The notes below the pieces were generated by a model. It had not been told where the DNA came from and did not search any database. It saw only the letters and a program-made list of their open reading frames with translations. From Oscillospiraceae bacterium Zagget12 (lineage in GTDB: Bacteria; Bacillota; Clostridia; UBA1381): DNA of 64,000 bases. The DNA is taken from assembly GCA_001941225.1 (NCBI GenBank), contig MSHM01000005.1, positions 42,491 through 106,490 on the forward strand, in the 5' to 3' direction. This document shows, piece after piece, positions 31,665 to 43,537 of this stretch (position 1 is the stretch's first letter; the number at the start of each line of letters is the position of its first letter). A program made the position numbers and the translations under genes.

Positions 31665-32201
31665 TCAGCCCTCCATATGCTTTCCGAGAAATCCGGCAGC
31701 CGATTCCACAAGCTTTTCATCAATTTCGGACGCCTTTTCGCCCTCTTTCATTATGAAAAGAACAGAACCGATGGTGTCGCCCTCCGATACTATCGGTACA
31801 ACAACTCCGGCGTTGTATTTTTCAACTCCGTCCGCGACCGATACCGGCTTGCCGTCCTTGTAGCTCACGACGATTTTTTCGTTCATAACCGTTTCAAGCT
31901 CGGGACTTACAGGCTTTTCAATAAGCTCCTTTTTCGGGAGCCCCGAAACAGCGATTACGTTGTCGCGGTCGGTTATGCAGGCGCCGTGTCCGCTTGCCTT
32001 TGCGAGCGTTTCCACATAATTTGACGCAAAATCACCAAGCTCGCCGATGGGCGAGTATTTTTTAAATATTACCTCTCCGTCCTTTTCGGTATAGATTTCT
32101 AAAGGGTCCCCCTCGCGTATGCGCATAGTGCGGCGTATTTCCTTCGGAATAACGACTCTTCCCAAATCATCTATTCTTCTTACTATCCCTGTGGCTTTCA
32201 T
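31665..32201 (-). CDS. spoVT: Stage V sporulation protein T (AbrB-family regulator)
   Basis: SpoVT tunes sigma-G dependent genes in the forespore. The N-terminal swapped-hairpin DNA-binding domain (1-50: ATGIVRRIDDLGRVVIPKEIRRTMRIREGDPLEI) is joined to a GAF-like ligand domain (about 55-178). The 178-residue length matches B. subtilis SpoVT. Upstream is a sequence matching the sigma-G consensus (32252-32282), as expected for this gene, with SD AGGAGG before the ATG. Confidence 0.95.
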   Translation of the reverse strand: MKATGIVRRIDDLGRVVIPKEIRRTMRIREGDPLEIYTEKDGEVIFKKYSPIGELGDFASNYVETLAKASGHGACITDRDNVIAVSGLPKKELIEKPVSPELETVMNEKIVVSYKDGKPVSVADGVEKYNAGVVVPIVSEGDTIGSVLFIMKEGEKASEIDEKLVESAAGFLGKHMEG

Positions 32202-32852: not shown

Positions 32853-33626
32853 ATGACACAGCTTGAACGATTAAATTATTTAATATCATATCTTTTGGCG
32901 GAGCAAGCGCGGTATTCGGATATTGAAATCCCGCGCAACACATCGGACAAAAAGCGGCTTTTGCGCTCGCTTATGAATGTGCGTCCTCCGCGCAAGGTAA
33001 GTGCGGAATTTTTGAAAATACAGGACGAATATCTACGGGAGGAAACACGGCAAAAGGGCATAACGAACGCGCGGGATTTAACGCCCGTGCGCGGTAAGCT
33101 GTGCTTATGGCAGGGCGATATTACAACGCTCAAGTGCGGCGCGATTGTAAACGCCGCGAACAGCGCAATGCTCGGCTGCTTTGTGCCGTGCCACGGCTGC
33201 ATCGACAACGCGATTCACACATACGCGGGTGTTGAGCTGCGCGCGGAATGTGCGGAGCAAATGCGCGGCGGCAGTGAGCCTACCGGCTCGGCGCGGGTGA
33301 CGATGGCATATAATTTGCCGTGCGATTATGTCATTCATACGGTCGGTCCGATTGTCGGAGGGCGATTAACCGACACGGATTGTGAGCTGCTTGCAGACTG
33401 CTATAAATCCTGTCTTAAAGCGGCGGATGACAACAATATAAAATCAATCGCGTTCTGCTGTATCTCCACCGGCGAATTTCATTTTCCAAACGAGCGCGCG
33501 GCGGAAATCGCTATAGACACGGTGGAAGAATATTTGCCGAAAAGTAAGATAGAAAGGGTGATTTTCAATGTTTTTAAGGACTCAGACCTCGAAATATACA
33601 AAAGACTTCTCGCAAGCCGCCTATAA
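32853..33626 (+). CDS. Zinc-dependent macrodomain protein-ADP-ribosyl hydrolase
   Basis: This 257-residue protein belongs to the macrodomain class linked to SirTM sirtuins, which removes mono-ADP-ribose from the protein modified by SirTM. An N-terminal helical region (1-85) precedes the macrodomain: LWQGDITTLKCGAIVNAANSA, the zinc-ligand motif FVPCHGCIDNAIH, RVTMAYNLPCDYVIHTVGP and CCISTGEFHFPNERAAEIA. The zinc Cys-x-x-Cys/His set marks the S. aureus/S. pyogenes type. The SirTM gene overlaps its 3' end by 59 bp. Function comes from family knowledge, not from this sequence. Confidence 0.92.
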   Translation: MTQLERLNYLISYLLAEQARYSDIEIPRNTSDKKRLLRSLMNVRPPRKVSAEFLKIQDEYLREETRQKGITNARDLTPVRGKLCLWQGDITTLKCGAIVNAANSAMLGCFVPCHGCIDNAIHTYAGVELRAECAEQMRGGSEPTGSARVTMAYNLPCDYVIHTVGPIVGGRLTDTDCELLADCYKSCLKAADDNNIKSIAFCCISTGEFHFPNERAAEIAIDTVEEYLPKSKIERVIFNVFKDSDLEIYKRLLASRL

Positions 33627-34443
33627 GCTCAAGAACGCGCTCGAAAGCTCGGACGCCGTTCTTATCGGCGCGGGCGCGGGACTTTCGACATCGGCGGGTT
33701 TAACCTATTCGGGCGAAAGATTTGAAAAAAATTTTGCGGATTTTTCCGAAGAATACGGCTTTTCGGATATGTATTCGGGCGGCTTTTATCCGTATGGTAC
33801 ATTGGAGGAATATTGGGCGTTTTGGTCGCGGAATATTTATATAAACCGCTATGAGGACGCGCCGACATCGGTATATAATGATTTGCTCGATTTGGTTCGT
33901 GACAGGGACTATTTTGTGCTGACAACGAACGTTGACCACTGCTTTCAGAAAAGCGGATTTGATAAGCACCGTCTTTTCTACACGCAGGGCGATTACGGAC
34001 TTTTCCAATGCTCAAAGCCGTGTCACGATAAAACCTACGATAACGAGGAGATTGTCAAGCAAATGTACGACACTCAACGCGATATGAAAATACCGTCGGA
34101 GCTTATTCCGCACTGTCCCAAATGCGGTGCGCCTATGACGATGAATCTGCGGTGTGACGATACATTTGTTCAAGACGACGGCTGGTACGCCGCGGCGAAT
34201 CGCTACGATGATTTTGTGCGTCGGCATAAGAATATGAAAATCCTGTTTCTTGAGCTTGGCGTGGGCGGCAACACGCCCGTTATTATCAAATACCCGTTTT
34301 GGCGTATGACTTCCGAAAACCCGCAAGCAACCTATGCCTGCATAAATTACGGTGAGGCGGTATGTCCCGAGGCAATAGAGCGGCAATCAATCTGTATAAA
34401 CGGCGACATTGGCGAGATTTTGACGCGTTTGAAAAATTTTTAA
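33568..34443 (+). CDS. SirTM-class sirtuin (protein ADP-ribosyltransferase)
   Basis: Class M sirtuins use NAD+ to mono-ADP-ribosylate a lipoylated GcvH-like carrier in known operons, in a redox response. This 291-residue protein shows LIGAGAGLSTSAGL (NAD+ binding), LTTNVDHCFQKSGF with the sirtuin Asn and Asp, YTQGDYGLFQCSKPC and the zinc pair CPKCGAP. The ATG at 33568 lies inside the macrodomain gene with SD AAAGGGTG 7 nt away, so translational coupling is likely. The usual GcvH-L and lipoate-ligase partners are not adjacent, which is unusual. The locus is under the element at 32750-32817. Confidence 0.9.
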   Translation: MFLRTQTSKYTKDFSQAAYKLKNALESSDAVLIGAGAGLSTSAGLTYSGERFEKNFADFSEEYGFSDMYSGGFYPYGTLEEYWAFWSRNIYINRYEDAPTSVYNDLLDLVRDRDYFVLTTNVDHCFQKSGFDKHRLFYTQGDYGLFQCSKPCHDKTYDNEEIVKQMYDTQRDMKIPSELIPHCPKCGAPMTMNLRCDDTFVQDDGWYAAANRYDDFVRRHKNMKILFLELGVGGNTPVIIKYPFWRMTSENPQATYACINYGEAVCPEAIERQSICINGDIGEILTRLKNF

Positions 34444-35518: not shown

Positions 35519-35773
35519 TTATGATTTCAGAGCATTTCGTATTTCTTCGGCGCATTTTCGGCATATATCCGTTTGAATACTTTCTACCGAAAAAACGTCC
35601 GTGTTTGTGCCGCAAAGCACACATTCCTTGCCATTACCGAAAACGGCGGCAATCTGTGAATCGTGCTTGAAATTCACTTCATCTCCGTCTTTTAGACCAA
35701 GCTCTATACATACGCCTTTTGGAAGTGTTATGCTGTTATCTTCTCCGAAGTGCAAAATTGTTGGATTTTTCAT
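35519..35773 (-). CDS. AbrB/MazE-type DNA-binding domain fused to a C4 zinc finger
   Basis: A small, 84-residue protein. Residues about 5-45 read as an AbrB/MazE/SpoVT swapped hairpin (ITLPKGVCIELGLKDGDEVNF). Residues about 50-80 hold two Cys pairs, CVLCGT and ICRKCAEEI, typical of a treble-clef or ClpX-like zinc finger. Such a fusion suggests a small transcription regulator whose stability or partner binding depends on the zinc domain. No toxin gene is adjacent. The 5' region is unusual: its promoter (35966-35994) is followed by a highly structured RNA and a terminator only about 30 nt before the SD AAAGGAG, so expression is probably controlled by antitermination. Confidence 0.8.
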   Translation of the reverse strand: MKNPTILHFGEDNSITLPKGVCIELGLKDGDEVNFKHDSQIAAVFGNGKECVLCGTNTDVFSVESIQTDICRKCAEEIRNALKS

Positions 35774-35805
35774 AATAATTCTCTCCTTTGTGTTAATTTA
35801 GTAAT

Positions 35806-35963
35806 AAAAAAGTGCGCAGCCAAAGCCGCGCACATAAAAACGCAGCTTTGATTATTGTTGCGACACAATCGAATATCAACACCAGGATATTACAAATCAA
35901 AGCTAACGTTTTTTGCAAACGTTAGCCTGGTGTCGAAAAAAATTATTCGAATATGTCGCAAAT
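35806..35963 (-). ncRNA. Candidate riboswitch-like RNA upstream of AbrB-zinc-finger gene
   Basis: Read on the minus strand, the RNA starts at stem P1 (TTGCGACA/TGTCGCAA, 35954-35961 with 35858-35865). Inside are P2 (35944-35949/35870-35875), P3 (ACACCAGG/CCTGGTGT, 35879-35886 with 35926-35933) and P4 (GCTAACGTT/AACGTTAGC, 35902-35910 with 35918-35926; it shares base 35926 with P3). A 15-nt bulge lies between P3 and P4. AATCAAAGCT (35844-35853) can pair for 10 bp with bulge AGCTTTGATT (35895-35904), as a pseudoknot, or its overlap CAAAGCTGCG (35841-35850) with CGCGGCTTTG (35821-35830), which is the 5' half of the terminator GTGCGC/GCGCAC-T6. These choices are mutually exclusive. No known riboswitch consensus was recognised. 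Confidence 0.6.
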
Positions 35964-35965
35964 AC

Positions 35966-35994
35966 ATATTATCATAATTAAAGCAATTTGTAAA
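35966..35994 (-). promoter_or_regulatory. Promoter of the structured RNA / AbrB-zinc-finger gene
   Basis: TTTACA, 17 bp, TAATAT on the minus strand; transcription would begin at about 35959, in the first strand of P1. Confidence 0.55.
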
Positions 35995-36073: not shown

Positions 36074-36189
36074 CAATAAAAAAGTGCGCAGCCAAAGCCG
36101 CGCACATAAAAACGCAGCTTTGATTATTGTTGCGACACAATAGAATATCAGCAATAGGATAATATTACAAATCAAAGTCTACGTTTTTT
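36074..36189 (-). repeat. Second, 5'-truncated copy of the structured RNA, in the glmS 3' region
   Basis: The first 67 or so bases (plus-strand order, from AATAAAAAAGTGCGC to GCGACACAAT) are identical to 35804-35870. Similarity then continues more weakly through ATTACAAATCAAAG to ACGTTTTTT and stops at 36189. The 5' strands of P1, P2 and P3 are missing and P4 is lost. The terminator and both competing 10-base segments remain. Lying 14 bp after the glmS stop, it can act as the glmS terminator. Confidence 0.8.
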
Positions 36190-36202
36190 ACAGATTTTTA
36201 TG

Positions 36203-43183: not shown

Positions 43184-43537
43184 TGGTGGAGCTGACGAGA
43201 GTTGAACTCGTGTCCGAAAACAAATCCATAAGAACTTCTCCGAGTGCAGGTTATGATTAAAATTCCCTTTGACGCTGTTTCATAACCAAAGCTGCGTCAT
43301 CGGTAGGCTTTATTGCATGGCGGAAACCAAGCCGCTTTTCCGCTCACGTTCACCGCATAAAATTATGCCAAGCCCTAAGCGGCGGTAAGCTTAGGGGTGA
43401 CAACGCCGCGCTTAGGCAGCGTAAGCTAAATCGTATTTATTAGCGTTTATTTTAAAATTGAGACCTTTTAAAGTGGCTGCCTCAACCACTACTCGCTATT
43501 CAAACTTCACTGTCCCCGTCGAAACCGTGACAGCCCC
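43184..43537 (-). ncRNA. ssrA: Transfer-messenger RNA (tmRNA)
   Basis: tmRNA with SmpB rescues stalled ribosomes. The minus-strand RNA begins GGGGCTGTCACGGTTTCGAC and ends GTTCAACTCTCGTCAGCTCC-ACCA, so the tRNA-like acceptor and T arm (TTCAA loop) are complete and CCA is encoded. The tag frame probably resumes at GCT and reads ANKYDLAYAA-stop, ending in the normal AA degron. Pseudoknot-rich sequence fills the rest. Length is about 354 nt. A promoter (43558-43585) and terminator frame it. smpB is not in the window. Confidence 0.95.

Follow-up and report, generated by a model that had tools for sequence, protein, structure and literature searches.

A multi-copy leader RNA of Clostridia with the predicted form of a five-strand-exchange transcription attenuator

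The locus and its leader RNA

The window analysed here, a stretch of 64,000 nucleotides, carries on its minus strand a sequence (35959-35806) that reads as a structured RNA, for which a separate promoter and terminator are predicted. The gene for an 84-aa protein (35519-35773, minus strand; ATG at 35773) begins about 30 nt 3' of this leader RNA and is preceded by a Shine-Dalgarno sequence, AAGGAG, at 35783-35788 on the same strand. The protein has an AbrB/MazE-like N-terminus, where MazE_antitoxin (20.6 bits, cut-off 24.7) and TIGR01439 (18.6 bits, cut-off 28.3) both score below their cut-offs, and a zinc-finger-like C-terminus of the form CxxC...CxxC; a homologue search with the 84-aa sequence found only the protein itself. 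Among the other features of the window are a full SpoVT-type AbrB regulator with a SpoVT_C domain (31665-32201, minus strand), some 3.3 kb away from the gene for the 84-aa protein, a Macro-domain gene (PF01661) overlapped by a 291-aa gene (32853-34443, plus strand), the latter sirtuin-like by eye and without a Pfam match at 1e-5, and a tmRNA gene (43184-43537, minus strand; Rfam RF00023, 167.8 bits).

The predicted promoter (35966-35994, minus strand) is read from the sequence and from the count of -10 elements in the family of related RNAs described below. It consists of a -35 element, TTTACA (35994-35989), and, after a 17-nt spacer, a -10 element, TAATAT (35971-35966), which has two mismatches to TATAAT and a TG one base upstream. 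This reading puts the predicted +1 at 35959, the same base that the original prediction had given as the start of the RNA. In the family, a -10 element with at most one mismatch is present in 157 of 182 copies, as against a mean of 57 and a maximum of 68 in 20 letter shuffles, and in 102 of these 157 copies it sits 5 nt before the first stem, P1.

The leader RNA (35806-35960, minus strand, as are all its parts) is matched by our covariance model R2 at 35960-35807 with 134.1 bits. The 5' strand of P1, TGCGACATA (35952-35960), is the very start of the RNA and pairs with the 3' strand TGTGTCGCA at 35867-35859 (duplex z -19.8). The junction J1/2 holds an AAUA motif (35944-35947). In the family model this is a conserved element without pairing partners, whereas the minimum-energy fold of the window copy itself pairs it; its conservation is seen in the consensus of 93 copies, and 133 of 183 copies have AATA between nt 10 and 24. 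The 5' strand of P2 (35927-35936) pairs in the window fold with 35885-35876, the 3' strand, which is also identified by covariation in the family.

Five further segments follow in order. Segment 1 (GCTAACGTTT, 35917-35926), recognised as inverted repeat I4, is the 5' strand of P3, and segment 2 (35895-35914) combines the P3 3' strand with a bulge that we call alpha (AAAAAACGTTAGCTTTGATT) and can pair with segment 1 or segment 3. Segment 3, the alpha' strand AATCAAAGCTGCGTTTTT (35836-35853), can pair with segment 2, in what we propose as the OFF state, or with segment 4, in the ON state. Segment 4 (35821-35833) is the 5' arm and loop of the terminator and also the antiterminator partner, while segment 5 (35806-35820) is made up of the terminator 3' arm (35820-35812) and a T6 tract (35811-35806). 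The terminator stem (35833-35825 with 35820-35812) is 99.3% paired across the family.

At the centre of this arrangement is the stretch 35853-35841 (AATCAAAGCTGCG, minus strand), which is complementary to 35904-35895 (AGCTTTGATT) and also, with one G-U, to 35830-35821 (CGCGGCTTTG). The original prediction had described just this, one segment with two exclusive partners in the bulge and in the 5' half of the terminator, and its reading of the sequence is borne out base for base. The 10-bp pairing that it proposed for the bulge is present, although it is longer than had been thought and runs into the P3 3' strand. As a whole, the 158-nt window RNA folds to -66.1 kcal/mol, compared with -33.9 kcal/mol (sd 3.6) for its shuffles (z -8.96; none of 200 shuffles was as low), and its isolated 50-nt tail folds as the antiterminator.

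A second, truncated copy of the RNA lies at 36079-36192 (minus strand), directly behind the stop codon of glmS, and is 91% identical over 100 nt. It is without the 5' half of P1/P2 and keeps segments 2-5, and no promoter was seen in its sequence. Its present role may be that of a terminator for glmS.

A family of RNAs in Clostridia and its conserved structure

A blastn search with the leader RNA found diverged copies, several per genome and some in tandem, both in the genome of the window and in many relatives. We built two covariance models, R1 from 20 aligned copies and R2 from 90 copies. The window's own genome has nine R1 matches at E <= 0.01 and 11 at E <= 1, and 53 of the 61 genomes in the search of relatives (the window's own included) have R1 matches, with a maximum of 29 in one genome. 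Among 391 genomes drawn across Clostridia, R2 matches 98, including 67 of the 317 of high quality; these belong to 21 families, a few of which rest on single weak matches, and copy numbers from this class-wide scan are lower bounds because seven candidates were scored per genome. In a phylum-wide draw of 299 genomes the window's own was matched and none of the 298 others, at least nine of which are also Clostridia; both the class-wide and the phylum-wide scans used stricter filters, which lose weak matches. An exact pattern search among named genomes gave 11 stretches, five from uncultured Monoglobus bins and six from bins labelled only 'Clostridia bacterium', and R2 matches all 11.

Some copies lie close to each other, with 24 of 182 having another within 450 nt downstream. 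Arrays of two or more tandem copies occur at G015:C59, G036:C106, G326:C138 (L239), G309:C80 (L236) and elsewhere (our designations for genomes, contigs and loci), and neighbouring copies on opposite strands at G018:C8 and G033:C17. We rejected the view that the RNA is cargo of phages or plasmids, as one exact conserved pattern had no match in viral contigs and the window RNA none in plasmids. Two fecal contigs labelled 'UNVERIFIED: Bacteriophage sp.', which are without annotation and whose phage label is unverified, do carry a copy (MT837627.1, L270:3954-4110, 95.8 bits; MT835845.1, L271:2076-2230, 100.1 bits).

The original prediction had recognised no known riboswitch class in the RNA, and Rfam bears this out at its thresholds. 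With Rfam 15, no family reaches its gathering score on the window RNA (the only hit elsewhere in the window is the tmRNA), and in 20 of the 80 loci fetched from other families the only hit is a Gut-1 RNA (RF01706; L258:3405-3476, minus strand) near a copy of the leader RNA, with none for the copies themselves. The best near-match, Leu_leader (RF00512), reaches 32.0 bits against a gathering score of 50; membership of a known RNA family is rejected on these scores. No description of this RNA was found in the literature covered, which included the motif-discovery papers PMC11109978 and PMC8040213 apart from supplementary candidate lists. We therefore call the RNA apparently undescribed, by which we mean that it has no match at threshold in Rfam 15 and no description in that literature.

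Covariation was assessed in 93 copies from other families (92 distinct) over 36 pairs, five of which belong to the pairing of the bulge with alpha'. Standard pairs make up 93.9% in these copies compared with 78.1% in shuffles, 33 of the 36 pairs have changed on both sides (21.5 in shuffles), and the covariation score is 0.558 compared with 0.242, a signal that is destroyed by sliding the partners. In P1, seven pairs are 99.1% and two are 97.8% paired, and all nine change on both sides; inner P2 is 92.9% paired, and all five of its pairs do so. Covariation of the stems across homologues, on which the original prediction had staked its case, is thus present, and the comparison of sequences indicates that the structure of the leader RNA is under selection. 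Conserved unpaired bases are few in the consensus of the 93 copies, so a ligand pocket is not evident.

Since an alignment fitted to a model leans towards the structure of that model, we added a test of duplex energy, in which the segments of each copy are compared with those of other copies. Both ALTERNATIVES co-evolve, alpha with alpha' and alpha' with the terminator 5' arm. In 87 of the 90 copies of the first set, alpha:alpha' (2:3) comes to -12.0 kcal/mol with its own partner and -8.35 with foreign ones (z -13.7), and alpha':terminator 5' arm (3:4) to -11.8 compared with -8.9 (z -12.0); for alpha and the terminator arm, which are not partners and served as the control, z is +0.65. When partners are permuted within genomes, which keeps relatedness, 2:3 gives z -8.1, 3:4 gives z -7.5 and the control +1.3 (69 copies, 15 genomes). 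The other families alone (88 of 93 copies) yield z -9.1 for 2:3 and -6.8 for 3:4, with three controls at -0.5 to -1.4.

In the largest test, on 181 of 183 copies, P3 (1:2) has z -18.3 (-8.9 within genomes) and the core of 2:3 has z -14.7 (-7.4 within genomes). The extension of 2:3, in which the P3 3' strand pairs with GCGUUUUU after alpha', has z -14.0 (-7.0 within genomes). The 3:4 pairing is weaker in this test (z -6.2, within genomes -3.7), where the alpha' segment, longer in the test on 87 copies, is cut before GCG. One control, which pairs the terminator arm with the 3' strand of P3, is at -4.9 overall and at -0.9 within genomes, and we therefore rely on the values obtained within genomes; the remaining three controls give +2.4, +0.1 and +1.6. 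On the fixed alignment, 3:4 is modestly above expectation, with 79.3% paired compared with 75.9% in shuffles, and its count of pairs changed on both sides is reached by 125 of 500 shuffles.

Proposed strand exchange and mechanism

Taken together, the five segments can pair as 1:2 and 3:4 or as 2:3 and 4:5, and each of these pairings co-evolves. As the P3 3' strand covaries with the stretch after alpha', strand 3 can displace the P3 part of strand 2 and not only occupy the bulge, so that the downstream strand can invade the P3 3' strand over about 17 bp. The RNA has, as an expression platform requires, mutually exclusive structures, of which 3:4 is the weaker on the fixed alignment. On these grounds, we consider it quite probable that the leader RNA, with its predicted promoter and terminator, is a transcription attenuator working by exchange among five strands, and that it forms a multi-copy family in 98 of 391 sampled Clostridia genomes. 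The riboswitch logic of the original prediction holds insofar as there is a switch-like leader with exclusive partners and covarying stems, placed before a gene; its restriction of the pairing to the bulge does not hold, as the pairing invades P3.

In the mechanism that we propose, the ON state would consist of 1:2 and 3:4, P3 and the antiterminator, with the terminator unformed and read-through into the gene some 30 nt on. The OFF state would consist of 2:3 and 4:5, the invasion helix and the terminator. The P1/P2 domain with its conserved AAUA would sense a signal on which the invasion of P3 by segment 3 depends, and this signal would be, as our first choice, a small molecule bound directly by the RNA or, as our second, a protein.

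The energies of the competing hairpins bear on the order of events. At minimum energy, the tail folds as the antiterminator in 81 of 182 copies and as the terminator in 101; when the two elements are considered separately, however, the terminator hairpin is the more stable one in 172 of 182, with a median advantage of 5 kcal/mol over the antiterminator segment. The terminator may therefore win at equilibrium even without the 2:3 helix, in which case the ON state would hinge on the growing transcript forming the antiterminator first. The link from the 3' strand of P1 to segment 3 is about 4 nt in the window copy, so that the 2:3 helix could coexist with a straight P1/P2 only under strain and a bend at J1/2 would be needed. 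It is a speculation of ours that this bend couples sensing to strand exchange. A -10-like element in the early transcribed region can be a promoter-proximal pause signal, and the conserved TnAATAt found class-wide at about +10 to +18 of the RNA resembles a -10 element; by this analogy it might be a pause signal instead of a sensor loop.

Putative target genes, candidate signals and comparison with known systems

Six of the 183 copies are too near a contig end to be judged; an ORF with an SD-like site lies within 160 nt downstream of 127, and the other 50 have none. The distance from the end of the model to the start codon has a median of 31 nt (IQR 22-44 nt). A strict rule, requiring a Shine-Dalgarno sequence and an ATG, finds a downstream ORF in 90 of the 161 copies with enough flank, compared with 15 and 10 in two positional controls. 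The loose rule finds one in 120 of 161 compared with 42 and 37 in the controls, from which it follows that about a quarter of positions pass it by chance. The family is thus a conserved structured RNA in a 5' leader, as expected of a riboswitch, though 50 of the 177 copies with usable flank are orphans, having no leader gene.

By a simple hydropathy rule, 62 of the 127 leader proteins, and 57 of the 77 that are at least 100 aa long, have a signal- or membrane-like N-terminus, compared with 40 of 282 neighbouring ORFs of at least 100 aa. Pfam was run on 44 of the 54 first-set and 58 of the 68 second-set candidate leader proteins, near-duplicates and doubtful ORFs being excluded; the 44 were drawn from a gene table that treated ORFs beginning within the RNA incorrectly. 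BspA-type LRRs were found in 10 and 13 proteins of the two sets, respectively, copper-amine-oxidase-N-like domains in three and 10, dockerin in four and one, and SLH, ricin, CHAP and others in one or two each. The largest single-linkage cluster holds 52 proteins from 11 families. Small leader proteins, mostly without a family match, also recur: a Cys-rich type in 11 copies (families f20 and f47), a type of 77-86 aa in five families and one of 38-59 aa in seven copies from three families. The gene neighbours suggest a regulon that combines proteins of the cell surface with small cytosolic ones. The window's own AbrB/zinc-finger type comes from three genomes in two families. The hint in the original prediction that the zinc finger points to metal or redox sensing finds no support, and we rejected such sensing as a general role because this cluster accounts for only three of the 127 leader genes.

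Several candidate signals can be weighed by their distribution across 41 relatives. Nine of these have no GGDEF match, and seven of the nine carry the leader RNA; c-di-GMP is for this reason disfavoured as a necessary signal and unlikely as the general ligand, with the reservation that several of those genomes are incomplete. We also rejected leader-peptide attenuation: an ATG precedes segment 3 in 171 of 183 copies, yet a start codon with an SD-like site and at least five codons before segment 3 is found in only 31 of 183, and 12 examples share no peptide.

That a single intracellular signal, read by a new class of riboswitch with a global role, sets surface and small proteins through invasion of P3, with up to about thirty promoter-sensor-terminator cassettes per genome, is a reading that we put forward tentatively. 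Somewhat more doubtful, if still plausible, is that the same attenuator is set by an RNA-binding protein holding P1, P2 and J1/2, in the manner of LicT-, ANTAR- or HutP-type antitermination. The scarcity of conserved unpaired bases and the conserved stem-loop sequence would also fit a protein site, and the same RNA before many genes would fit a global protein. The two candidates tested, however, are not required: a CAT_RBD (LicT) protein occurs in two of the 41 relatives, both without the leader RNA, and an ANTAR match is absent from 13, 11 of which carry it. LicT and ANTAR are accordingly disfavoured as necessary factors by their presence and absence across these relatives. The two with a LicT-type CAT_RBD (G009 and G012), the only ones among the 41, are also the two same-genus genomes in which the leader RNA had no match.

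The orphans and arrays raise a different question, whether the functional form is the terminated product, about 155 nt long, acting in trans as a stand-alone small RNA, with the downstream gene incidental. Orphans keep both pairings as strongly as other copies do (no difference, p 0.23 and 0.73), their terminators being slightly weaker (-15.0 compared with -16.3 kcal/mol, p 0.0005), and 17 of the 50 lie just upstream of another copy. Control of a gene in cis therefore fails to explain the orphans, and simple cis control does not explain tandem cassettes, each with its own predicted RNA start and terminator. A predicted promoter and terminator belonging to each copy, and a P1 that spans the very 5' end, also suit a free RNA. 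However, the leader position far exceeds that in the two controls, the distance to the start codon is short, and an RNA that is simply terminated would have no need of the covariation seen between alpha' and the terminator arm. We regard a purely trans-acting RNA as unlikely; a second function in trans of the terminated RNA is possible.

A MITE-like mobile or repeated element that spreads a promoter-terminator cassette without any regulatory role is very improbable. It would account for the many copies per genome, the tandem and head-to-head arrangements, the truncated copy behind glmS and the terminal inverted repeat that P1 forms, but that inverted repeat excludes the promoter, the distances to start codons are short and regular, and copies within one genome have diverged and yet retain compensatory changes. 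Chance, with a commonplace long hairpin ahead of a commonplace terminator, a combination of which the Leu_leader near-match is an instance, can practically be dismissed given the fold z-score, the class-wide homologues and the covariation.

On the evidence of sequence comparison, we thus regard the RNA as probably a real, apparently undescribed, multi-copy transcription attenuator, for which the small-molecule riboswitch is the leading, though unproven, subtype. It is present in 98 of 391 sampled Clostridia genomes, and a single genome of the relatives search has as many as 29 matches, yet it had no Rfam 15 match at threshold in the loci searched. Its position singles out a group of surface proteins (BspA-type LRR, copper-amine-oxidase-N-like, dockerin, SLH) along with small proteins, and knowing its signal would reveal what these Clostridia sense when setting their surface. 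The five-strand exchange, moreover, leads to precise, testable predictions for mutations.

Leader-peptide attenuators of the trp/leu type are built as a chain of competing strands, and the exchange of 1:2 and 3:4 against 2:3 (and 4:5) is shared with them, Leu_leader included; the difference lies in the peptide, as no conserved one was found here and the Leu_leader score is below its cut-off. T-box, RAT/LicT and ANTAR antitermination elements are bistable antiterminator/terminator leaders, as this RNA is predicted to be, although carriers here do not need LicT or ANTAR domains; T-box, judged through Rfam only, had no match at its gathering score in the window or in the 20 of 80 other-family loci. 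The c-di-GMP-I and c-di-GMP-II riboswitches occur in several copies per genome and have adhesin and surface-protein targets in Clostridia, so that multiple copies, surface-protein targets and the leader position are common to both. The present RNA differs from them in being unmatched at Rfam thresholds and in its presence in most of the relatives that lack a GGDEF match. With transcription-terminating riboswitches in general it shares a leader RNA in which a sensor-like domain is followed by an exclusive antiterminator and terminator, and an internal bulge that pairs with a strand further downstream in the manner of a pseudoknot. It stands apart from these in its few conserved unpaired bases, its many copies per genome and its targets, which are surface and small proteins as opposed to the genes of one metabolic pathway.
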